DNA of 32,068 nucleotides from Chloroflexota bacterium (lineage in GTDB: Bacteria > Chloroflexota > Dehalococcoidia > Lucifugimonadales > Lucifugimonadaceae): assembly GCA_030831265.1 (NCBI GenBank), contig JAURLM010000039.1, forward strand, positions 1 to 32,068, in the 5' to 3' direction. The notes under the pieces are model-generated. The model did not search any database and had not been told where the DNA came from. It saw nothing but the letters and a program-made list of their open reading frames with translations. The translations under genes were made by a program, and so were the position numbers. Positions 292 through 14,966 of this stretch are shown one piece after another. Positions within the stretch are counted from its first letter, which is position 1. Every line of letters begins with the position of its first letter.

Positions 292-455
292 GCTTGCTCC
301 TGTGCCGGTCAGTTGCCGACGGGCTAATCCGGCGAACTGTATAGGATGTTCAACGTCACCATTATTAGACGTGGTGGACCGGAAACACTCTATTACAGTA
401 CTACGTCAGAGCGGCCGTGCAGGATATTGCCAAACCAGACACACAGGAGTGCGAC

Positions 456-1286
456 GTGAACGCCAGCGAACTGAAGAGCACCCTCGAACGGGGCCAGCCG
501 GTCTTCGGCATGATGATCTCGATGATGGAGAACATGCGGTGGATGAGCGTGCTTGCTGCAACCACCCTTGATTACGTTGTAGTGGACACTGAGCACGGTT
601 CGCGTGACAGGCGCGAGGTCGCCAATCACGTAATCATGGGCAAGGCCGCAGGCAAGACGGTCATTGTGCGTGTCCCTGAACCGAACCCGCTGTGGGTTGC
701 AGAAGCCGTTGACGCCGGTGCTGACGGCGTCCTGGTTCCCTACTGTGAAAACATTGATGACGTGCGCGCATGTGCATGGAAATTGCAGGTTCATCCGCTG
801 AAGGGCGAATACTTTGACCGGGTTGCACAGGGTGGTGACTACCCCAGCCCGAAGTCGAAGGCTTACCTGGAGAAGCGCAACGCCAACCGGCTATTCATCC
901 TGGGCATTGAGTCCGAGCCAGCGGTGGACAACCTTGAAGCACTGGTGACAGCGGGGCCGATCGACGGGGTGTTCGTTGGTCCGAACGACATGACAACATC
1001 TCTCGGTATCCCGGACGAGGTAGACAACCCGATCTACATCGACGTGCTGAAAAAGATCATCAAGGTGAGCGAATCTCACGGCAAGCCGGTGATGATTCAT
1101 CAGCAGACTATGGAGACCAGCAAGAAGGCTATCGAACTGGGAGCGCGCTGGATTTTGCACAGCACGGATGCCGGTTTCATCCGCAATGGCGTAAACGCAG
1201 ATTTCGCTGCATTGCGTGAAGCTGCCTCGAAGAAGTGGGAAGTCTCAACTTCGAAGAGCGGTGGTGACATGGGAGCGGTTCACTAG
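456..1286 (+). CDS. HpcH/HpaI aldolase/citrate lyase family protein
   Basis: ORF 417..1286; preferred start GTG 456 preceded by AGGAG. Motifs LERGQPVFGMMISM, VVVDTEHGSRD, GADGVLVPYCEN, ILGIESEPAVDNLE, DGVFVGPNDMTTSLG are typical of the family. Confidence 0.9.
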   Translation: MNASELKSTLERGQPVFGMMISMMENMRWMSVLAATTLDYVVVDTEHGSRDRREVANHVIMGKAAGKTVIVRVPEPNPLWVAEAVDAGADGVLVPYCENIDDVRACAWKLQVHPLKGEYFDRVAQGGDYPSPKSKAYLEKRNANRLFILGIESEPAVDNLEALVTAGPIDGVFVGPNDMTTSLGIPDEVDNPIYIDVLKKIIKVSESHGKPVMIHQQTMETSKKAIELGARWILHSTDAGFIRNGVNADFAALREAASKKWEVSTSKSGGDMGAVH

Positions 1287-1351: not shown

Positions 1352-1433
1352 GCATTGGGGTTGAATCACATAGCTTTGACGTTTTTTCGAGATGTATGGA
1401 AGCTGCATAGCTGCATATAGGGGAGAAGCAGGT

Positions 1434-1817
1434 ATGGAACGGGAGAATTTCATCAAGGCCGTTTCAGATATGGCGGACCAGGTATGGGATTTCCATGAAC
1501 GCTGGAATTTCTGGCCATTCGAAGGGCCGGAGCGTTCGGCTGCACAGTCAATCACCGAACGACAGCCAATCCTCGATGAGGAGATCCGCGAACTCGCCGA
1601 GGCGGTTGCCGATGACGATTCCGTAGAGGTAGCTGCAGAGGCAGCGGACGTGCTGTTTGTTGCGCTGGGTCATGTACTTAGCCTTCGCAAGGAGGGCATA
1701 TCCGGCGTGGCGGCGGTCACTGCTAAAAACGCTGCCAAGACCGAAAAGACACACCGCATCCGACCAGACACGGGGAAGCTACTGCCGATCCACGGCAAGC
1801 CCCACAAGTGGGAATAG
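1434..1817 (+). CDS. MazG-like nucleotide pyrophosphohydrolase family protein
   Basis: ATG 1434 after GGGGAGAAGCAGGT. MERENFIKAVSDMADQVWDFHERWNFWP...ILDEEIRELAEAVADDDSVEVAAEAADVLFVALGHVL: EExxE ... ExAD pattern of MazG-type alpha-helical NTP-PPases. Confidence 0.75.
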   Translation: MERENFIKAVSDMADQVWDFHERWNFWPFEGPERSAAQSITERQPILDEEIRELAEAVADDDSVEVAAEAADVLFVALGHVLSLRKEGISGVAAVTAKNAAKTEKTHRIRPDTGKLLPIHGKPHKWE

Positions 1818-1895: not shown

Positions 1896-1939
1896 TCTGT
1901 TGGAAACAGATACGAATATAAGCTAGTATCACCAACTAG
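1896..1939. promoter_or_regulatory. Two inverted repeats upstream of the HTH/pseudo-receiver gene
   Basis: TCTGTT-GGA-AACAGA (1896-1910) and CTAGT-ATCACCA-ACTAG (1923-1939), both perfect dyads; TTGATT at 1889-1894 immediately precedes the first. Confidence 0.4.
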
Positions 1940-1972
1940 AGACGATAATCTACTAAACATACAGGTTGGAAT

Positions 1973-2503
1973 GTGCCTACATACCTGAACATCCGAGATG
2001 CCGCTGACTACCTCGGAATCAGCCCGCACACGCTCTACAAGCTGGTAGAGCGTCGGGAAGTTCCTGCAGCGAAGGTCGGCGGATCGTGGCGTCTGAACCC
2101 GGAAGCGCTGGACGCGTTTTTGCAGGGCGGCACGACACGCGGCGCGAAAACCATCGAAATACTTATCGTCGAGCAGGATGACTCTGTTCGGCGTGACCTG
2201 GCTTCCATTGCCATGTCACGCGGCGCTCGGCCGCAGATGGCATCGACATCAGAAGATGCACTGCTACTGCTTTCTGGCGGAGCGAGTGTTGACCTGATCC
2301 TGTGCGGAGTTTCTGCGGACCCCGTAGAGGCTGACGCGTTCTTGCAGCGGGCGAAAGAGCATTGTGCTGATTGTCGTATAGCGCTGATGGTGGAGCCTGA
2401 GCGCGCCGCTGACCTGGGCGGGCTGATGCGGCACGGCCCAATGATTATGTTGAGAAAACCGGTTGAACGACCCGATATTGTCAGCCTGCTGGCGTTGATC
2501 TAG
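1973..2503 (+). CDS. Excisionase/MerR-type HTH (HTH_17-like) domain fused to receiver-like (REC) domain
   Basis: GTG start. N-term MPTYLNIRDAADYLGISPHTLYKLVERREVPAAKVGGSWRLNPEALDAFL is a classic excisionase-family HTH; C-term IEILIVEQDDSVRRDL...VDLILCGVSAD...IMLRKPVE follows the CheY-like fold pattern. Confidence 0.85.
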   Translation: MPTYLNIRDAADYLGISPHTLYKLVERREVPAAKVGGSWRLNPEALDAFLQGGTTRGAKTIEILIVEQDDSVRRDLASIAMSRGARPQMASTSEDALLLLSGGASVDLILCGVSADPVEADAFLQRAKEHCADCRIALMVEPERAADLGGLMRHGPMIMLRKPVERPDIVSLLALI

Positions 2504-2512
2504 GGAGGACGC

Positions 2513-3016
2513 ATGGAGGCATTACAGCCCAACAACAGCAATGACAGGCTGCAGGTCATTCGCAGGGTTCCTACTCCGTTGCCAGCGCGTGGCTGCGAGG
2601 CGATGCTCAGCGTGCTGACGGAGAAGGTGCAACTACTGCTGGATCACGTGAAGGTGCTCGAAGACCGGATACAGCATGTGGAGTCAGGAACCGGGCCTGC
2701 CGATGATATTGCCAGCACGGGGCTGATTGATGCTGGCTCTGTGCAGATAGATCACGCTGCGCGGAGAGTTTATGTTGGCGGAAACGAGATTCCGCTTTCA
2801 CCGACCGAGTACCGGTTGATATACCACCTTGCGGCAAACTCAGGCAAAGTCGTGTTGCATCGTGACCTGCTGCGACGGGCATCGGTTCACGGCGAGGTTA
2901 ACCCGGCCAATCTGAAGGTCTACATTGGCAGGTTGCGCGCGAAGCTGAAGCAGGGCGATGCCGTCCAGTGTGAACTTGAAGCTGTGCGTGGCGTGGGCTA
3001 CCGGCTCACAGCCTGA
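2513..3016 (+). CDS. OmpR/PhoB-type winged-helix DNA-binding protein without receiver domain
   Basis: ATG after GGGAGGA, 9 nt downstream of preceding stop. C-term VQIDHAARRVYVGGNEIPLSPTEYRLIYHLAANSGKVVLHRDLLRRAS...NLKVYIGRLRAKL...VRGVGYRLTA is a Trans_reg_C domain; N-term has heptad-like MLSVLTEKVQLLLDHVKVLEDRIQHVES. Confidence 0.9.
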   Translation: MEALQPNNSNDRLQVIRRVPTPLPARGCEAMLSVLTEKVQLLLDHVKVLEDRIQHVESGTGPADDIASTGLIDAGSVQIDHAARRVYVGGNEIPLSPTEYRLIYHLAANSGKVVLHRDLLRRASVHGEVNPANLKVYIGRLRAKLKQGDAVQCELEAVRGVGYRLTA

Positions 3017-3019
3017 GCA

Positions 3020-3745
3020 TTAGCTGAGCGTGAACGCTCGGAACGCCTCTGCGTAGGCCGCTCCGACTTTTGCGCCTAGGTCAGCTCTTCGCTGACGCAT
3101 CCATTTCCCTGACTCTTCAGGGTTCTTTATCTGGCTGGTGTGCGCGTGCAGCGCACGAATACTTGTATCAACGTCGACTTCTTCCAGCGGGTTGAACCGG
3201 GTTGCATCTTCACCGAACATCGTGACCCACACTTCACGCACCTTGTGCGGCTCAAAACCCTCTTCCAGCAGTTCAGGGAATGTCAGGTGGTCGCGTGCTG
3301 CCGGGTAGACGGCTGACATGGCGGCCTCACCGGCTGCGAAGTGGTCCGGGTGGCCAATGTACCCGGAACCAAGCAGATCCCGGCGCGGGTTGGTCGTGAT
3401 GAGGATGTCCGGCCTATGGCGGCGAATCTCGCGGGAAATGTCTCGTCGCAGGTCCAGCGATGGCTCAAGGTAACCATCCGGGTATCCCAGGAATTCGACC
3501 GTCTTCAGGCCGAGCACCTTGCCTGCATCGATCTGTTCCTGTTTGCGAATTTCAACAAGTTTCTCGCTGCTGATATTGCGGTCGTCCGTGCCCTTCGAGC
3601 CGTCTGTGCACAGGACGTAGACGACTTCCCAGCCGAGCCTGCACCACTTCGCCACTGTTCCTGAGCAACCGAATTCGGCGTCATCAGGATGTGCAACCAC
3701 TACCATCGCCCTGCTGTATGCCGTTTCGTCTTTCTGCTGAGTCAT
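3020..3745 (-). CDS. PIG-L (LmbE-type) deacetylase family protein
   Basis: VVVAHPDDAEFGCSGTVA, CTDGSKGTDD, R(K)QEQIDAGKVLGL, GYIGHPDHFAAGEA motifs. Confidence 0.9.
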   Translation of the reverse strand: MTQQKDETAYSRAMVVVAHPDDAEFGCSGTVAKWCRLGWEVVYVLCTDGSKGTDDRNISSEKLVEIRKQEQIDAGKVLGLKTVEFLGYPDGYLEPSLDLRRDISREIRRHRPDILITTNPRRDLLGSGYIGHPDHFAAGEAAMSAVYPAARDHLTFPELLEEGFEPHKVREVWVTMFGEDATRFNPLEEVDVDTSIRALHAHTSQIKNPEESGKWMRQRRADLGAKVGAAYAEAFRAFTLS

Positions 3746-4659: not shown

Positions 4660-4852
4660 TCTTTCACCTGTGGACGGTCAGCCGTAAACGAACCAGTATT
4701 CCTGATTCGAGTGTCGGACCGGGCGCGCCCACGCCACAGTGTTTAAACTTCACAGGCGATATTACCGTTTGCTGCGGGCGGTGTTCGTCTTTTCTGTTCA
4801 GTCAGAACAAGTATTAGATTTCAGCCCGGGCAAGAAATTCCAGGAGCGACAG

Positions 4853-6519: not shown

Positions 6520-7302
6520 TCAGTGGCCAGTTGGCTTCTTGAAAAGGGCATCGTGCTCATGGCCGCCAGCTGCACGTGGCGCCAGCACTCCGTCTGAAAT
6601 CTCGTAGATGTGGTCGGCCATATCCAGCAGCGTACGGTCGTGCGTTGTTGCGACGATTGTCATGCCGCGATCGTGTGACATTTCCTGGAACAACCCGAAG
6701 ATGTGTCCGGCGTTCGACGAGTCCAGTTCACCTGTTGGCTCGTCGGCAAGGATGATGTCAGGCTTGATACCGACAGCCCGTGCGATAGAGATGCGTTGCT
6801 GTTCACCGCCTGACAGCTCAAATGGCCGGTGCTTGGCCCGGCGGGTCAGGCCAACCATCTCCAGTGCTTCCTCCGTGCGCTGAGAACGCTCACGGGCACT
6901 CAGTCCTGCGATGCGAAGTGGTAGCTCCACGTTTTCGTAGGCGGAGAGCAGTGGCAGCAGGGCGAACGACTGGAAGACGACTCCGATGCGTTTGCGTCGC
7001 ATCTGGATGACCTCTTTTTCGCTCAGGGTAGCCATGTCCTTGCCTTCGAAAAGGATCTGGCCCTCTGTCGGGTGGTCAAGTCCTGCGAGCATGTTAAGCA
7101 GGGTGGTTTTGCCTGAGCCTGAACGGCCGACGAGCGTCACGAAGCTCTGTCGATGAATGTTCATCGAGACGTTCTTTACGGCGTACACATCCTCATTACC
7201 GAGTTTGAACGCTCTGCTTGCACTCTTGACTTCGATCAACGGCGCTGTGGTGCTGCGTGCTTCGGTAACGGCTGTTGCCGACGGGTTACTCACCTGACTC
7301 AA
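6520..7302 (-). CDS. ABC transporter ATP-binding protein (LolD/MacB-like)
   Basis: Walker A GRSGSGKTT, Q-loop VVFQSFALLP, signature LSGGEQQR, Walker B IILADEPTGELD. Confidence 0.95.
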   Translation of the reverse strand: MSQVSNPSATAVTEARSTTAPLIEVKSASRAFKLGNEDVYAVKNVSMNIHRQSFVTLVGRSGSGKTTLLNMLAGLDHPTEGQILFEGKDMATLSEKEVIQMRRKRIGVVFQSFALLPLLSAYENVELPLRIAGLSARERSQRTEEALEMVGLTRRAKHRPFELSGGEQQRISIARAVGIKPDIILADEPTGELDSSNAGHIFGLFQEMSHDRGMTIVATTHDRTLLDMADHIYEISDGVLAPRAAGGHEHDALFKKPTGH

Positions 7303-8173
7303 GAGTCACCTTCCCATCACTAACGCCGAGCCGTACCCGGCGGTGGATTGCGAGTTGATCCAGGACGTCACGCGGTATCTGCACCGAGCCGCTGGAGTCC
7401 ACGATGAGGAATTCCTCGGTCTCAGATGCTTCTCCGCCAATCTTGCGTTCGAACGATACGATCCGGGTTGTCTCGGTGCTTGTTTTGCCATCACGTATAG
7501 CGACTGCGCGGCCGACGCTTGTTGAGATTGCCGGGTCATGCGTCACGATGACGATGGTCGTGCCAAGTTCGCTGTTCACATTGTTGAGGAGCGCAAGGAC
7601 TTCCGAGGCTGTCTCGTCATCAAGCTCTCCCGTTGGCTCGTCTGCCAGTAACAGCGGCGGACGGTTCGCCAGTGCTACCGCAATGGCTACGCGTTGCTGT
7701 TCACCACCGGAAAGCTGACCGGGTTTGTGATCCCGCCTGTGGCCCAGGCCGACAATCTCCAGCAGTTCAGATGAACGTTGCTCCCGTTCCTTGCTTGGAA
7801 CTCCTGTCAACAGCATGGGAAGTTCGACATTTTCGTATGCCGTGAGGTACGGGAACAGGTTTCGTGATGTTTCCTGCCAGACGAACCCGACTTCTTGCCT
7901 GCGGTACTCCACAACCTCTTTGTTGGTCATCTGTAGCAGGTCGAACTTGCCTACGTGAACCGTGCCGGCAGACGGCGTATCGTAACCGGCAAGGATGTTC
8001 AGCATTGTGGACTTTCCAGAACCGGATGCCCCGACCACTGCGATCACTTCGCCGCGATCTACCGAAAGCTCAAGCCCGCGGAGGGCGACTACTTCAAGGT
8101 CTGCCACTTTGTAGATCTTGAATAGCCCGCTACAGACCAGGTATGGATCGTTCCCGGGATTTGTCATTTGCAA
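7286..8173 (-). CDS. ABC transporter ATP-binding protein with AbrB-like C-terminal tail
   Basis: Walker A GASGSGKST, signature LSGGEQQR, Walker B LLLADEPTGELD; 41-residue C-terminal segment FLIVDSSGSVQIPRDVLDQLAIHRRVRLGVSDGKVTLESGE; 17-nt overlap with next ATPase gene. Confidence 0.93.
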   Translation of the reverse strand: MQMTNPGNDPYLVCSGLFKIYKVADLEVVALRGLELSVDRGEVIAVVGASGSGKSTMLNILAGYDTPSAGTVHVGKFDLLQMTNKEVVEYRRQEVGFVWQETSRNLFPYLTAYENVELPMLLTGVPSKEREQRSSELLEIVGLGHRRDHKPGQLSGGEQQRVAIAVALANRPPLLLADEPTGELDDETASEVLALLNNVNSELGTTIVIVTHDPAISTSVGRAVAIRDGKTSTETTRIVSFERKIGGEASETEEFLIVDSSGSVQIPRDVLDQLAIHRRVRLGVSDGKVTLESGE

Positions 8174-8222
8174 TCGCCTGTTCTAACCGCTGTTTCAGCC
8201 CTGTGGATTCGCATTTCCTGGC

Positions 8223-11200
8223 TCATCCCTCTCCCATGCGCATAACGCGGTGGATTGACATTCGGTAGACGGACAACAGGATAGTGATAATAACCGCTGA
8301 GAAGACGACAGCGAGCAGCCCGAAGGTGATGCTGAATCCTGTCCAGTCGATCTGCAGAACCATTGGTGGCACAAGCGTCTTGTCTTCGCCGGAGTTGGCA
8401 AGGAACGGGATGATGGTGTCGCCCAGTCTCGTTCCCATGAACAATCCGATGCCGACCGCTACTCCGATGACGATGATTTGCTCAAGCAGCACCAGCACCA
8501 GCAACTGAGGCATCGAAAGGCCCATCGTCCTGAGCAGGGCGAACTCCCCGCGGCGGTTGGTGAATGAGATGCGCACATGTACCAGGAAGCCGATGGCGCT
8601 AACGATCAGCACTGTGAGGAACGATATACCGAGGAGTGCCTGCCAGCCAGCCGAAACCAGCGGATCAACGGCTACCGTGGACATTTGGGCAGACCTGTCG
8701 ATGATTCGACCTGAGCGTAGATCCATGCGAGCCGTTTCAGCATCGACGAGGGCAGCAACCGGGTCTACTGGCGGAGAGTTGAAGACAAACCCGGTTCGCG
8801 TGGCTTCTGCCTCGTCTCCCGTTACTGTGCGCAACCAGACTTCGTTCGGCTGTACCTCACCGGTCAACTGCGCAAGGTTGAGGGCGGCGTGCACTGCGTC
8901 GAGATCTGCAATCAGGAAGGGTTTTGTGTCACCGTTAAGCGTCGGGAACAGTTTTATCTGACCAGCAATTTTGATACGAATCCTGGCTGATCCCACGCCG
9001 ACGAGGACCGGATCTCCTGTTTCTACGCCGAACTTATCCATGAATGTGTTACTGGCGAGCGCGGGCATGACCGGTTCATCCCAGCCTACGGCTATGCCAC
9101 GTAGCTCCCGGGCAGCGGCTCCTGTCCAGCGGAACCGGGCAATTCCGGGTAACTGGTTGCCGGTGTCATCAGTTGCCACGCTAAAAGTGTCACCGAGAGA
9201 TTCGGCGGATGGCTCAAGCGTGCGCCAGCGTGAAAGATCATCGAACTCTTCGACAATTTTCAGTTGCGTCTCGTCCTCTGTGAGGACTGCGATATCGTCA
9301 ATATCAACAGCTCCTGGCGGAGCGCCGTTGCCGAAATCTACGATGCCGATGGAATGAAGCCGCACAGGGCTTTCAAAGAGCAGGGGGCGGTTCCTGCCGA
9401 GGGGAAGTGGTGCCAAGCGAGCACCAACTCTGCACCAGCCCGGAGTAACTGAAGGGTCTGGGTCGCTGCATGTGAAGCGGTTGCTATCAAGCGCTTCCGG
9501 CAGAAGGAGACCAAGGGCGACTGTGTAATACCGGTCGTTTGCATCACTGAGCCTTGCGATCACGTACGTGTCTTGCTGGCGGCTCAGAGGTTTGATTAGA
9601 GCGGTGATCCAGAATGAGTCATCGGGCAGTAGGATGCCGCCTCGTCCGCCAATTTCAATGGGTTCTAACACGCTGTCAATGGATCCAGATTCAATGAAAT
9701 CATCACGGAACCATGCAACGGAAGGGAATGTCTCTGATTCAATTCCGAGCAGGGTAAATGATTCATTTGTGGTGCCGTAAGAGACGCTGCCAGATTGGCG
9801 ATAGACGCTGGAAGCGGCAACCACCCCTTCAACCTGTTCCATCCTGTCTGCAGTCCGGAAACTGGGGCCGCCAACAATTGACGTGATGGACGGGACGCGC
9901 AGGTCCGCACCCGTATCTTGCAGTACCTGTTCGGTTGCACTTCGTTCAAGCGTAGTGGCGAAACTTGCGGCAAAAACGCCGAGGCCAGACGTGAGGATGA
10001 GCAGCAACGAAAGGCGTGCATGGCTTGCAGGGCTACGAGCCATCTGCCAGATGCTAAGTACGACTGAAGGGGGGATGATACGGCTACCTATCGAGGATGA
10101 CATCACCCGGCCCGTCAGGTTCATGACAGCCGGGAACACGCGCAACAGAACCACGCCTGCTGCGACGAGGAACATTGCCGGTACAGCCAGCACCAGGTTG
10201 TTGACGCTTTCGTCACCAAACACATCGGTGGCAATGAACGAACCCTGCCGTGTGAGTTGCCAGAACAAGAACATGACCACGCCCAGGATGCCGAGGTCAA
10301 GGTAATAGCGCTGTATGAAAGCGAGCCGTGGCGGTCTTGCGCGGGAACGTTTGTCGGTGAGCAGTCCAAGGCGGGTGGCGCGTATGGCGGGGATGAATAG
10401 CGCCAGCATACTGAGCGCTCCGCCGATGAGTGCGAGCTGGTATGCGCCGAATGTAATCCTGACGGGTAAGGCGTGTCCTGCGTTGAGGTCTGCATAGAAA
10501 GGCACGGTTCCGATAGCCGACACGCCGACCATTGCAAGCAACGGGCCGATTATCACCGCCAGCCCAACCAACACTGCCGCCTCAATGACGAATACTGCGA
10601 GTATCTGGCGAGACGTTGCGCCGCGGGAACGCAGGAGAGCTACTTCAGTGCGTTGCGCTTCGACAAGCAAGGATGCCAGCGTGACAACGTAATACAGCAC
10701 CACCAGTACGATCAGGATGAGCACAACGAACATTGGTAGTTTGTTGAAGAAGAGGTCGGACTCGAACTGCTCGAGGACGTCGCCAAGCTTGGTGTCGATG
10801 ACAAAGTTGTCGACAATGGCCCTCAACTCGTTGCTGGTCAGATTGATCGTGTCGCGAAGTTGCGTGGTCTGCGAGGCGTCGATAGATGACGGGTTGACAT
10901 CAAGGATCCATGCAAAGTCAGCGCCCATGCCGGGGAAGTAGTGTGCGATGCCGTCGATTATCGATTCATCGGAGACTACGAAGCGTGCGAACTCCAGCGC
11001 AAGGCCCTTGTTTGAGAAGGTGTCGTCATATATGCGCCACAGCGGCAAGTCCGGGTCAGTGCGCTGGTAGATTCCTACAACGCGGGCGGTCACTTTGGAG
11101 TGCACGTCATTCCAGAAGATCTTGCCGTGCAGATCACTGCCAATGGTCAAACCAAACAGATCCGCTGTATCTGAGTCGATCGCTGCATCGACCACGTACT

Positions 11201-11741
11201 CCCCGCCTTCAGGAGGCAGGTTCAGTGCGGGCGAGGGGAACCCTCCAGCGATGAACGTCAGGTTCTGGTCCGGGTCAGGCACCGTCACGAAAGACATGCG
11301 CTGACAGTCACAGGCAATTGTCCCCGCCGCAGCGTCATCCTCCGGTTGCGGAGCCGTATTTGTTGCACGGCACGGGCATTCTCCTGACATAACCTGGGGC
11401 AACGTCTCGTCGAGCAGGAATGTCCACGTCTTGAACGCGTGTTGCTCATCATTCAAGAACGGTTTCAGGCGCTCAACAATGCTGTCCTGCATGGTCTGCA
11501 AAACGCGGTCCTGTTTTTCATGCGTGATCGGAACGATGCCGGCCTGTATCTCCAGGTCAAGCCCTTGTTGATCAGCACTGTTCAGTGAACGATCCAGCGC
11601 GAGATTTCTGAGCGAGTCGAAGTAGATGGCGGCACTGGCCATCACCGTCACAGCCAGTACGACGCCGATGACAACGGCGGAGAGCAACCTTGCATGGGCG
11701 GCTGTTCTACGGGCGACGAGAAGTAACGATGCTGCTAGCAA
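8223..11741 (-). CDS. Large FtsX/MacB-type ABC transporter permease (1172 aa)
   Basis: Three clusters of hydrophobic helices (N-term LLSAVVIGVVLAVTVMASAAIYF; LPMFVVLILIVLVVLYYVVTLASLL ...LLRSRGATSRQIL; C-term FLTVLIVSAIGFLVHV...ALLRTMGLSMPQLLVLVLLEQ), as in FtsX-domain permeases; gene abuts the ATPases. Confidence 0.88.
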   Translation of the reverse strand: MLAASLLLVARRTAAHARLLSAVVIGVVLAVTVMASAAIYFDSLRNLALDRSLNSADQQGLDLEIQAGIVPITHEKQDRVLQTMQDSIVERLKPFLNDEQHAFKTWTFLLDETLPQVMSGECPCRATNTAPQPEDDAAAGTIACDCQRMSFVTVPDPDQNLTFIAGGFPSPALNLPPEGGEYVVDAAIDSDTADLFGLTIGSDLHGKIFWNDVHSKVTARVVGIYQRTDPDLPLWRIYDDTFSNKGLALEFARFVVSDESIIDGIAHYFPGMGADFAWILDVNPSSIDASQTTQLRDTINLTSNELRAIVDNFVIDTKLGDVLEQFESDLFFNKLPMFVVLILIVLVVLYYVVTLASLLVEAQRTEVALLRSRGATSRQILAVFVIEAAVLVGLAVIIGPLLAMVGVSAIGTVPFYADLNAGHALPVRITFGAYQLALIGGALSMLALFIPAIRATRLGLLTDKRSRARPPRLAFIQRYYLDLGILGVVMFLFWQLTRQGSFIATDVFGDESVNNLVLAVPAMFLVAAGVVLLRVFPAVMNLTGRVMSSSIGSRIIPPSVVLSIWQMARSPASHARLSLLLILTSGLGVFAASFATTLERSATEQVLQDTGADLRVPSITSIVGGPSFRTADRMEQVEGVVAASSVYRQSGSVSYGTTNESFTLLGIESETFPSVAWFRDDFIESGSIDSVLEPIEIGGRGGILLPDDSFWITALIKPLSRQQDTYVIARLSDANDRYYTVALGLLLPEALDSNRFTCSDPDPSVTPGWCRVGARLAPLPLGRNRPLLFESPVRLHSIGIVDFGNGAPPGAVDIDDIAVLTEDETQLKIVEEFDDLSRWRTLEPSAESLGDTFSVATDDTGNQLPGIARFRWTGAAARELRGIAVGWDEPVMPALASNTFMDKFGVETGDPVLVGVGSARIRIKIAGQIKLFPTLNGDTKPFLIADLDAVHAALNLAQLTGEVQPNEVWLRTVTGDEAEATRTGFVFNSPPVDPVAALVDAETARMDLRSGRIIDRSAQMSTVAVDPLVSAGWQALLGISFLTVLIVSAIGFLVHVRISFTNRRGEFALLRTMGLSMPQLLVLVLLEQIIVIGVAVGIGLFMGTRLGDTIIPFLANSGEDKTLVPPMVLQIDWTGFSITFGLLAVVFSAVIITILLSVYRMSIHRVMRMGEG

Positions 11742-11744
11742 CGC

Positions 11745-14700
11745 CTAGTCCCTTGTCCGGATCAGGATGTGCAACGGTAGCCGTGGGTACGCACGGAGCA
11801 GCGCACCAAGCACCAGCACTGCTGTGAGAATTGCAATGCCGAGGATGATGCCAACGGGGAACCAGTTGATCTGGAGTATGAACGGTGGCAGAAGCCTGTC
11901 ACCTGTTTCGGTGAATGCCATTGATTGCATAGCGATTCGGCTGATCCCAATGCCTGTGACCACACCGAGCACTATTCCAACTAGCCCTATCAAGCCATGT
12001 TCGATCATCACGATTCGCAGGAATTCGCCGCGTGAAAGTCCAATGGCCTGCATGTAGGCGGAGTCATGTTCCGTGCTTCGTGCGTGAGCGGAAAGGTAGG
12101 TGACGTATCCGAGGACCGTGGCAATGCCGGTGAGGATAAGGGCAACGACGCCCATGCCGCGCCAGCCAGCGACCGCCAGTGGGTCAACGGTGGTGTTGTT
12201 CAGCATCTCTTCCCGGTCAATGATCATCCCTGATCGGAAGATACCTCGTACCTCGTTCTTTATCTCAACATGCCTGGATGTGTCGATGGACACGAACATT
12301 TCGTTCGCACCAAGAGATCGCAGGCCGCGAAGTTCGATGAACGCAAGTAGCGAACTGATGTCAGCCACAACGAACGGGTCACGCTGTGAATCCAGGGTGG
12401 GAAAATAGCGGAGCGAGTCTATGACGACCAGCGGCACGAAGCCGCCGCCAATGTTGGCAACAAACGGAACTCCAACCTGTGAGTTTGTCGTTGTAAGGAA
12501 CGAGTCGCTCGCAATTACAGGGAGAGGGCCACCGGTAGCAGTTCGGTACACGCCGCGGACACCGCTGTTGGTTCCGCGATCCATTGTGATGATTGCAGTG
12601 TTGGTTCCCGGCTGGCCAATGCCGGGTGCTTCCGGGGTGATCAAATATACGGTGTCCAATCCGTTTGACGTTGGGAGTCCAGTCCAGAGTTCAGCGTCAT
12701 CGAACGAGATAACCGTGTCTGCAAACCCTGGCCCAATTGCCGTCAGGTCATCCAGGTGTATCTGTGTTGGGGTGCCGCCGTCGCCGCCTGCCTGCATAAA
12801 GGTCTGGATGGAAATGAGCTCTATGGGTTCAGTCAGGTTTGTCGGTACATCTACAGATTGCATCCCCCATGTATCACCAATCTGGCCCATCGTGGCGGTG
12901 ACCGTTCGGCCGGTCGATCCGCGAAGGATCAACCACAGGAAGTGGTCAGTAACGTAGGGGTCTTGCTTTGCCCATATCGTCAGCTGTGTCGTTCCAGCAG
13001 GTATCAGTATGGGTTCCGGTTTTACTGGTACGTTGACGCGGCCGAGCAACGTACTGACGTCATCTTCAGCGAAATCATCCCGGAACCAGCCGATCTGCGG
13101 AAACTTGAGAGCGTCCACAGCAAGCAGTTCGAAGTCAGGGCCAGAGTTCGTCGTTCCGAGTGTAGCGGTGGATCTCAATGCCAACGAAGCGAGGTTTACA
13201 CCCTCAATAGCTTCGACCTCGGTGATGTCTGCTGAAGTTACTGAATTGCTGATGCCGGAAGGTGTTACATGCAAATCACCGCCAGTTTCGTAAAGCACCT
13301 GCTCCCGGCTGCTTCGTTCGAGCGTTGATGCAAGCGTCCCGGCCAGCACTCCCAGTCCCCCTGCGAGCACAAGCAGGATGATGGGCCATGAATACCAGTA
13401 AGGCCTGCGTCCCAGTCTCCAGAAACCCATGGAAATGGAAGCTGAACCGGACCGGCCTGCGATTATGGATACCGTCTTGGCAACCAGGGGGAAGATTCGC
13501 AGGAATACCAGTGCGATGACGATGAGGAATATTGCCGGAGCGAACAAGAGCGTCGAATCAGCAGAGCGTCCGCCGTCTCGTGAAGCGGATACGACTGACC
13601 CACGTGAGTTGAGCTCCCACCAGACCAATCCCCCGAGTACCAGGAACAGTGCATCAAGGTAGTAGCGTTGGAACAACGGGGGGGTGTCAGGGCGGGATTT
13701 CGAAGCGCGGTCGGCGACGATACCGCTCTTGGCAGCGAGTAGAACCGGTCCGAGTATGACCACGAGCACGGCGACACCGGTTCCTGCCGAATATGCCCAT
13801 GCCTTCCAGGTTAATTCCACACTGAGCGGTTCTCCGTTGGTGACCTGGTCAAAGACCGGGAGCATGCCCATCGCCCAGACAGCGGCGGCGGCTACCAGTG
13901 GGGCTACCAGGACAGGAAAGCCAATCAGCAGCAACCCCTCCAGTGCTTCAAAACGAAGAATTTGCAGGACGCTTAGCCCACGGCTGCGTAGCATGACGGT
14001 TTCCGGGCCGCGTCTTGTCGAAAGTAACCCTGAAACGAGGAACAGGTAGTAGATGACGATCACGATGGTCAACGCGGCGATCAGGAACATGGGTATGCGG
14101 ACGAACGTGATCTTCTCTGTAAGCCGCTTGAAAGTGGGATCGATGGATGTGATTACACTCGGCCGGACGATTTTCTTGGCAACGTCGTCTTCCAGGCTGG
14201 TTATGCGCTGCAGCATGTCCCCAGCAGGGGCGTTGCTGAGTTTTTCAGCGTTCGTGAAGTAGACCCAGTTGAAATCAGCAGGCAACCCGGCATTAGCGGG
14301 TGCCACTCCCTGTGTAATGGCATCCCAGTTCACGTGGAGAATCAGCGGAAGGTCACGCCCTCCGAATTCGATTGGCGGTGATGGCGTCAGAATTGCAGTG
14401 GGATAGCCGAGCCAGAATGGGGAACGCTCATCGTTGGCCTTGAAGATGCCGGTAATCTTGACGTTGATTGTGCCGACCCCGCGCGGTTCGGAAACAGCAT
14501 GGATCACATCCCCAACATGCAGCGTTATCTCGTTTTCACCATGCTTTCGCGTCACCCTTGCATAGTTGATTGCAGCTTCAACGGTGCGCGTGCCATTCGG
14601 AGCTATGTCTACCTTGTTTGAAGGTGGCCCGCCTTCGAGGTAGGTGACCTGTTCTTGCAGCCCGGTCATTGTCTGGAAGAAGGCGCGGGATGACAGGGGG

Positions 14701-14966
14701 GCAGTTAGAGGCGGAAGGTCAATGAAGTTCCAGAAATGCCCCCTGGACTTGATACGGAACGAACTGGAATCGTAGTACCCCCCAATGTATTGCCGGGCGA
14801 GGTTGTCTACGGACGCTGTGGCCTCGTTTGCCGCCACCGCTTCCAGAGGAACCCAGTTTGAGTTGATTATGACGTTCTTGTTGTAGGCGCCCATGCCAGC
14901 AACTGCGTCGGTAACGCCGATCTTTTCAAGCGCACGCAGATACACAGGGCCGCCCGAGACGACCAT
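11745..14966 (-). CDS. Large FtsX/MacB-type ABC transporter permease (>=1073 aa), paralog of the neighbouring permease; N-terminus probably extends to about 15044-15077
   Basis: Same architecture and shared motif FPxxxWFRDDF; TVMLRSRGLSVLQILRFEALEGLLLIG and AYMQAIGLSRGEFLRIVMIEHGLIGLVG FtsX-like segments. ORF remains open to 15083, encoding upstream half of a TM helix (LLAGSFIAIFIAAMVVSGGPVYLRALE). Confidence 0.88.
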   Translation of the reverse strand: MVVSGGPVYLRALEKIGVTDAVAGMGAYNKNVIINSNWVPLEAVAANEATASVDNLARQYIGGYYDSSSFRIKSRGHFWNFIDLPPLTAPLSSRAFFQTMTGLQEQVTYLEGGPPSNKVDIAPNGTRTVEAAINYARVTRKHGENEITLHVGDVIHAVSEPRGVGTINVKITGIFKANDERSPFWLGYPTAILTPSPPIEFGGRDLPLILHVNWDAITQGVAPANAGLPADFNWVYFTNAEKLSNAPAGDMLQRITSLEDDVAKKIVRPSVITSIDPTFKRLTEKITFVRIPMFLIAALTIVIVIYYLFLVSGLLSTRRGPETVMLRSRGLSVLQILRFEALEGLLLIGFPVLVAPLVAAAAVWAMGMLPVFDQVTNGEPLSVELTWKAWAYSAGTGVAVLVVILGPVLLAAKSGIVADRASKSRPDTPPLFQRYYLDALFLVLGGLVWWELNSRGSVVSASRDGGRSADSTLLFAPAIFLIVIALVFLRIFPLVAKTVSIIAGRSGSASISMGFWRLGRRPYWYSWPIILLVLAGGLGVLAGTLASTLERSSREQVLYETGGDLHVTPSGISNSVTSADITEVEAIEGVNLASLALRSTATLGTTNSGPDFELLAVDALKFPQIGWFRDDFAEDDVSTLLGRVNVPVKPEPILIPAGTTQLTIWAKQDPYVTDHFLWLILRGSTGRTVTATMGQIGDTWGMQSVDVPTNLTEPIELISIQTFMQAGGDGGTPTQIHLDDLTAIGPGFADTVISFDDAELWTGLPTSNGLDTVYLITPEAPGIGQPGTNTAIITMDRGTNSGVRGVYRTATGGPLPVIASDSFLTTTNSQVGVPFVANIGGGFVPLVVIDSLRYFPTLDSQRDPFVVADISSLLAFIELRGLRSLGANEMFVSIDTSRHVEIKNEVRGIFRSGMIIDREEMLNNTTVDPLAVAGWRGMGVVALILTGIATVLGYVTYLSAHARSTEHDSAYMQAIGLSRGEFLRIVMIEHGLIGLVGIVLGVVTGIGISRIAMQSMAFTETGDRLLPPFILQINWFPVGIILGIAILTAVLVLGALLRAYPRLPLHILIRTRD

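Follow-up and report, generated by a model that had tools for sequence, protein, structure and literature searches.

A pseudo-receiver regulator and an adjacent receiver-less winged-helix protein behind a putative repeat operator in uncultured Dehalococcoidia

RitR, ChxR and CmrT (ALR/PsR regulators) have a receiver fold without the phospho-accepting Asp, and the promoter of ChxR contains multiple sites that the protein itself recognises (PMC4395418, PMC12632262, PMC3960148). A 2025 review describes the on/off switching of such pseudo-receivers as a mystery (PMC12632262). According to that review, WhiI and BldM of Streptomyces exemplify an atypical regulator acting with a second regulator; both partners bear receivers, and hetero-pairing was reported. 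BldC of Streptomyces, a MerR-like HTH protein of 68 residues without a receiver, binds head to tail to variable numbers of AT-rich direct repeats, AATTXXXX(C), of about 9 bp (PMC5859096). Most OmpR/PhoB regulators bind direct repeats as well (PMC3960148), and PMC4832192 gives the PhoP/PhoB-type repeat as 11 bp, made of a 7-bp motif and a 4-bp spacer. Pseudo-receivers, BldC-type HTHs and PhoB-type winged helices are thus all already known.

The window analysed here, a stretch of 32,068 nt from an uncultured bacterium that its nearest named relatives place in the Dehalococcoidia (Chloroflexota), contains two adjacent genes, called gene 1 and gene 2, whose coordinates, strand and 9-nt gap were given exactly in the original prediction. 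The features of the locus are as follows.

417..1286, + strand: HpcH/HpaI aldolase, upstream neighbour of gene 1, conserved in sister genera too
1392..1817, + strand: MazG-like gene, between the aldolase and gene 1 in the genus
1900..1929, + strand: putative promoter elements found by eye, TTGGAA (1900-1905), an 18-nt spacer and TAGTAT (1924-1929), the latter inside repeat unit 2
1913..1962, + strand: five tandem 10-bp direct repeats, predicted as a probable operator, in 7/7 genomes of the genus
1973..2503, + strand: gene 1, 176 aa, GTG start, HTH_17-pseudo-receiver regulator
1982..2128, + strand: HTH_17 (excisionase/BldC-type) domain, gene 1 residues 4-52 (Pfam PF12728, E 2.8e-15)
2156..2500, + strand: receiver fold without phosphorylation chemistry, gene 1 residues 62-176 (profile, AlphaFold, Foldseek and alignment)
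2306..2308, + strand: codon of Gly112 of gene 1, at the position of the phospho-accepting Asp (alignment; Asp in all 32 canonical relatives)
2504..2508, + strand: GGAGG ribosome-binding site of gene 2 (from sequence)
2513..3016, + strand: gene 2, 167 aa, receiver-less PhoB-like winged-helix protein
2591..2683, + strand: coiled-coil helix, gene 2 residues 27-57, a/d positions 32, 35, 39, 42, 46, 49, 53 and 56 (model and heptad analysis)
2723..3013, + strand: OmpR/PhoB-type winged helix, gene 2 residues 71-167 (profile and model)
3020..3745, − strand: PIG-L deacetylase, convergent and conserved neighbour

Gene 1 shares the receiver fold lacking the phospho-Asp with RitR, ChxR and CmrT, whereas these carry an OmpR-type output C-terminal to the receiver and gene 1 carries HTH_17 N-terminal to it. 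Multiple sites in the own promoter, as in ChxR, are also what we propose for the pair. The HTH of gene 1 and the tandem repeats resemble BldC and its sites, although the array has a period of 10 bp. Gene 2 resembles PhoB/OmpR proteins in its C-terminus, a whole winged helix, and differs in having a coiled coil in the place of the receiver. The likeness to WhiI/BldM is to the proposed pair as such; here the pairing is a proposal and gene 2 has no receiver. The closest relatives belong to an HTH_17-receiver family of Dehalococcoidia, NC10 and Brocadiaceae, with the same domain order, length and 10-bp periodicity before the gene, of which gene 1 is a derived member. Unlike the window pair, its canonical members lack gene 2, retain the DD pair, Asp, Thr and Lys, and are often encoded close to a histidine kinase. 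In the open-licence full texts covered, no literature on this family or on the pairing of gene 1 with gene 2 was found.

The predicted coupling of an excisionase-type HTH to a receiver-like domain in gene 1 was borne out. The Response_reg match was weak (E 2.1e-4; 21.9 bits vs. a Pfam gathering score of 30.2). The AlphaFold model, built from a 12-row alignment (overall pLDDT 83.8), showed a winged HTH and a complete (beta-alpha)5 receiver, the latter with pLDDT of about 79-94, and Foldseek against the PDB returned many solved receivers (Spo0F, CheY4, RssB), with E-values to 1e-6 and TM-scores by target up to 0.87. In the alignment, Gly112 occupied the phospho-Asp position and Glu-Gln the DD pair; Asp, the second acidic residue (DD2) and Thr are missing and Lys is retained. 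The phospho-Asp position was Gly, Ala or Ser in 12/12 orthologues of family f1, and among its 11 full-length copies DD2 was acidic in none, Thr/Ser was present in none and Lys was kept in five. These replacements agree with the earlier proposal of control independent of the classic phosphorelay, and, as had been noted, no histidine kinase turned up among the main window ORFs, although an unlinked one is possible. Gene 1 hence combines the fold of a pseudo-receiver (PsR/ALR) with the HTH_17/MerR-like winged HTH of the BldC family. It lacks the phospho-accepting Asp and acidic pair of a canonical response regulator, and in the place of the C-terminal dimerisation coiled coil and effector domain of MerR proteins it has the receiver fold. 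As judged from sequence, the gene 1 product was formerly a response regulator and now has what PMC12632262 calls a pseudo-receiver, because the canonical relatives keep the phosphorylation residues and often have a kinase nearby, and family f1 has lost these residues.

A class-wide search recovered the HTH_17-receiver architecture in many other Dehalococcoidia families, and a scan of named genomes recovered it in NC10/Methylomirabilota and Brocadiaceae; the contig scan gave matches with an alignment query and nothing with a single-protein query. All five phosphorylation residues were kept in 32/32 full-length relatives sampled outside the order of the window. Canonical Dehalococcoidia loci examined with wider flanks had a histidine kinase nearby in four of five cases (L155-L158), and none was found among the ORFs checked at the fifth, L154. 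The pseudo-receivers of family f1 formed one clade with a support of 100/100. Within the same order, family f114 contains two HTH_17-receivers (L152:3583-4116 and L153:3355-3891), in which Asp is changed to Glu and Lys is kept; their genes adjoin a TENA/THI-4 gene. The f114 proteins grouped apart from f1 inside the canonical part of the tree, a placement whose certainty is lowered by long branches, and this suggests a second, independent loss of the phospho-site.

Gene 1 without gene 2 was found in a recognisably similar neighbourhood in the sister genus g11 (four genomes, one contig ending inside gene 1) and in one g7 genome. It lies there downstream of the HpcH/HpaI aldolase gene and close to PIG-L and alpha/beta-hydrolase genes. 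The sequence comparison favours gene 2 as a later addition limited to the genus of the window over its loss in the sister genera, because gene 2 was absent from all 32 canonical loci.

Gene 2 had been described as an OmpR-type DNA-binding protein with a coiled-coil-like N-terminus replacing the receiver and with a strong Shine-Dalgarno sequence of its own, and both statements were upheld. Trans_reg_C matched residues 90-165 (E 5.5e-15), PhoB was the best NCBIfam model, and GGAG followed the gene 1 stop in 5/7 orthologues. Apart from stretches of low confidence, the structural model consisted of the single helix and an OmpR/PhoB winged helix. Gene 2 thus has the C-terminal winged helix of OmpR/PhoB proteins and no N-terminal receiver by profile, model or heptad analysis. 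The wording "coiled-coil-like" was right, because an unbroken 3-4 heptad pattern was kept in all seven orthologues: it runs through four heptads (residues 32-56), and all eight a/d positions were large hydrophobic residues in 7/7 orthologues (56/56), the best of the seven registers. V34, Q40, D44 and D51, at outward b, c and f positions, were invariant. Cys28 (2594-2596), at a d-like position just N-terminal of the coiled coil, was also invariant in 7/7 orthologues, and a disulfide or redox role for it is possible. For the N-terminal helix, no relatives above noise were found in other genomes of the order and no convincing ones outside the genus. One genome of the genus encodes two further winged-helix proteins that lack a receiver and have a short N-terminus of another kind (L073:4403-4948 and L074:4567-5055, both − strand), one downstream of a chemotaxis receptor gene and one beside a DUF3179 gene.

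Upstream of gene 1, the five units of the array read CGAATATAAG CTAGTATCAC CAACTAGAGA CGATAATCTA CTAAACATAC in the window, and the genus consensus unit is CTAATATCGA. The motif before gene 1 across the genus reached 18.2 bits, compared to 11.9 ± 0.5 in shuffles (at most 14.0 over 40 trials). This motif makes up the head of the array, where five 10-bp units follow one another in phase. Over these 50 nt, autocorrelation gave z-scores of 7.2, 5.5 and 5.3 at lags of 10, 20 and 30. With units 1-2 as its training set, a unit matrix scored −0.9, 3.1 and 0.4 at units 3, 4 and 5, compared to an out-of-phase mean of −10.5 (sd 2.8). The array score of 22.7 was the best match of the whole 32 kb. At the other six loci of the genus the score was 17.8-38.6, two of them being best one unit further upstream, and at loci without gene 2 it was at most 5.1. 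In g11/g7 the DNA preceding gene 1 and the aldolase showed no periodicity, nor did the DNA preceding gene 2. When up to three mismatches were allowed, a two-unit pattern gave eight matches in the seven genomes, six of them at the gene 1 promoter (one genome twice); it recovered five of the seven genomes, because the copies in the window and in L062 are too divergent for the pattern. The two other matches, one overlapping the end of an SDR gene, were not arrays, and this search of seven genomes revealed no regulon or other targets. TTG at the −35 position, an 18-nt spacer and a TAnnAT hexamer were visible by eye in 5/7 orthologues and were too weak for a consensus scan.

A 10-bp period was also present within 80 nt of the start codon in 18 canonical relatives without gene 2, with z-scores of 4.0, 2.9 and 2.4 at lags of 10, 20 and 30, compared to −0.5, −1.6 and 1.2 in a control region, phased A-tracts in AT-rich promoters being a possible confounder. 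The repeat sequences of these relatives differ from the array of the window genus. Canonical HTH_17-receiver genes of Dehalococcoidia and NC10 with the periodicity just before the start codon include L076-L103 and L115-L118. These repeats suggest that tandem-repeat autoregulation is a trait of the HTH_17-receiver family and that BldC-like tandem-repeat binding may extend to response regulators.

We consider it probable that gene 1 and gene 2 form a phosphorylation-independent, self-regulating, co-transcribed pair of DNA-binding regulators with the array as their own operator. Gene 1 would have descended from an HTH_17-receiver response regulator that was once under kinase control, and its pseudo-receiver, though deprived of the phosphorylation residues, may have been kept for folding or protein contacts. 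Its HTH_17 would most likely bind the five 10-bp repeats head to tail in the manner of BldC, and binding over its own promoter would result in autoregulation. Gene 2 would be a permanent dimer through the predicted coiled coil in the place of the receiver. Being on the same message, it would most likely act jointly with gene 1 at shared or overlapping sites. The output would then follow the expression level, or a ligand or partner of the pseudo-receiver, rather than a kinase.

The two genes were direct neighbours in 7/7 genomes of the genus, with gaps of about 8-10 nt; conservation of this neighbourhood in relatives was a test named beforehand. Divergence at codon positions 1, 2 and 3 was 0.22-0.28, 0.14-0.23 and 0.54-0.61 in both genes across the genus, i.e., third positions diverged 2-4 times more than the others. 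Conservation of both ORFs in seven genomes together with this third-position divergence indicates that they are real, selected genes, not a chance or broken gene. The window and three relatives do have both genes in one frame with a single stop between them, as would be expected if a single conventional response regulator carried a frameshift or stop-codon artefact, or if the gene 1 stop were read through. The stop codon, however, varies among TAG, TGA and TAA. L066 and L067 have the two intact genes in different frames, with a gap of 8 nt, and the frames also differ in L064, which has an apparent small indel at the start of gene 2. The order of HTH, receiver and winged helix corresponds to no conventional regulator, and relatives without gene 2 terminate gene 1 at the same point. 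We therefore rule out that the pair arose through read-through or a sequencing frame error, an explanation with hardly any credibility left, and the separateness of the two ORFs is confirmed. A phage or excisionase origin was also rejected: tblastn gave no match in 50,697 phage records, and the neighbourhood is common to sister genera, so the pair consists of ordinary chromosomal genes. What did not survive is the idea of one response regulator distributed over two polypeptides, since gene 1 encodes a complete protein of the single-gene HTH_17-receiver family and gene 2 was added later. A related reading, that the pair forms an obligate hetero-complex in which the pseudo-receiver is docked on the gene 2 helix and the two proteins jointly replace one response regulator, is possible but rather unlikely. 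It accords with the strict adjacency and tight spacing in 7/7 genomes, with the heterodimers of an atypical regulator reported for WhiI/BldM in PMC12632262, and with the invariant outward residues of the gene 2 helix, which are unusual for a simple homodimeric coil and hint at a second partner. But gene 1 stands alone in the sister genera, the perfect heptads explain gene 2 as a homodimer, and a model of the two proteins as a single in-frame chain, with Gln at the stop, had good domains and no confident docking between gene 1 and gene 2 (pTM 0.41).

The identity of the array binder was considered in the same way. Gene 2 could be the binder, because sister genera, despite a very similar HTH_17, lack the array at gene 1: the array was found in 7/7 genomes with gene 2 and at none of the sister-genome gene 1 loci without it, and this co-occurrence favours gene 2. 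Its winged helix is closest to PhoB, and tandem repeats suit OmpR/PhoB domains. That gene 2 alone binds the array and regulates the operon, with gene 1 acting at other sites, is nevertheless a minority reading for us, against which stands the 10-bp periodicity before the HTH_17-receiver gene in canonical relatives without gene 2. For the same reason we prefer self-binding by HTH_17 as the ancestral state, with gene 2 joining later. The 10-bp period coincides with neither the BldC repeats of about 9 bp nor the 11-bp PhoP/PhoB type, and this counts against the preferred reading. A mixed filament of both proteins on the five repeats over their own promoter, with the pseudo-receiver docking or sensing a ligand, so that a response regulator freed from its kinase would have been rebuilt as a two-protein unit working without phosphorylation, is a speculative and doubtful extension. 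We regard it as improbable that the pseudo-receiver is a decaying relic, the array a mere conserved promoter and the pair an ordinary constitutive regulator operon. Most receiver elements do evolve faster than the HTH (41-89% identity by element, compared to a mean pairwise identity of 83% for HTH_17 within the genus), and −35/−10-like elements overlap part of the array, so part of its conservation may be promoter, because unit 2 doubles as the −10-like hexamer. However, the beta strands and alpha5 stay conserved (68-89%) in a fold predicted to be intact, the loss of the phospho-site is common to 12 species, and units 3-5, downstream of the −10-like hexamer, keep their phase.

The HTH_17-receiver family offers a before/after series, with canonical members, some near kinases, and two apparently separate losses of the phospho-site (f1 and f114). 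In one genus, a dedicated partner gene and a putative, sharply defined operator came after the loss. Together, the series, the partner gene and the operator make tests of what replaces phosphorylation concrete.

The steady neighbourhood of aldolase and PIG-L deacetylase gives only a hint of the targets of the pair. Elsewhere in the window, the divergent region between a hydrolase gene and purE (4660-4850) contains a TGTGAAGTNTAAACA-like motif conserved among four genomes of the genus. Further downstream (6520-14966, − strand), two ABC ATPase-like ORFs are followed by a pair of very large FtsX-type permeases (about 1,170 and 1,070 residues), and these genes are a large MacB/LolCDE-like exporter set.
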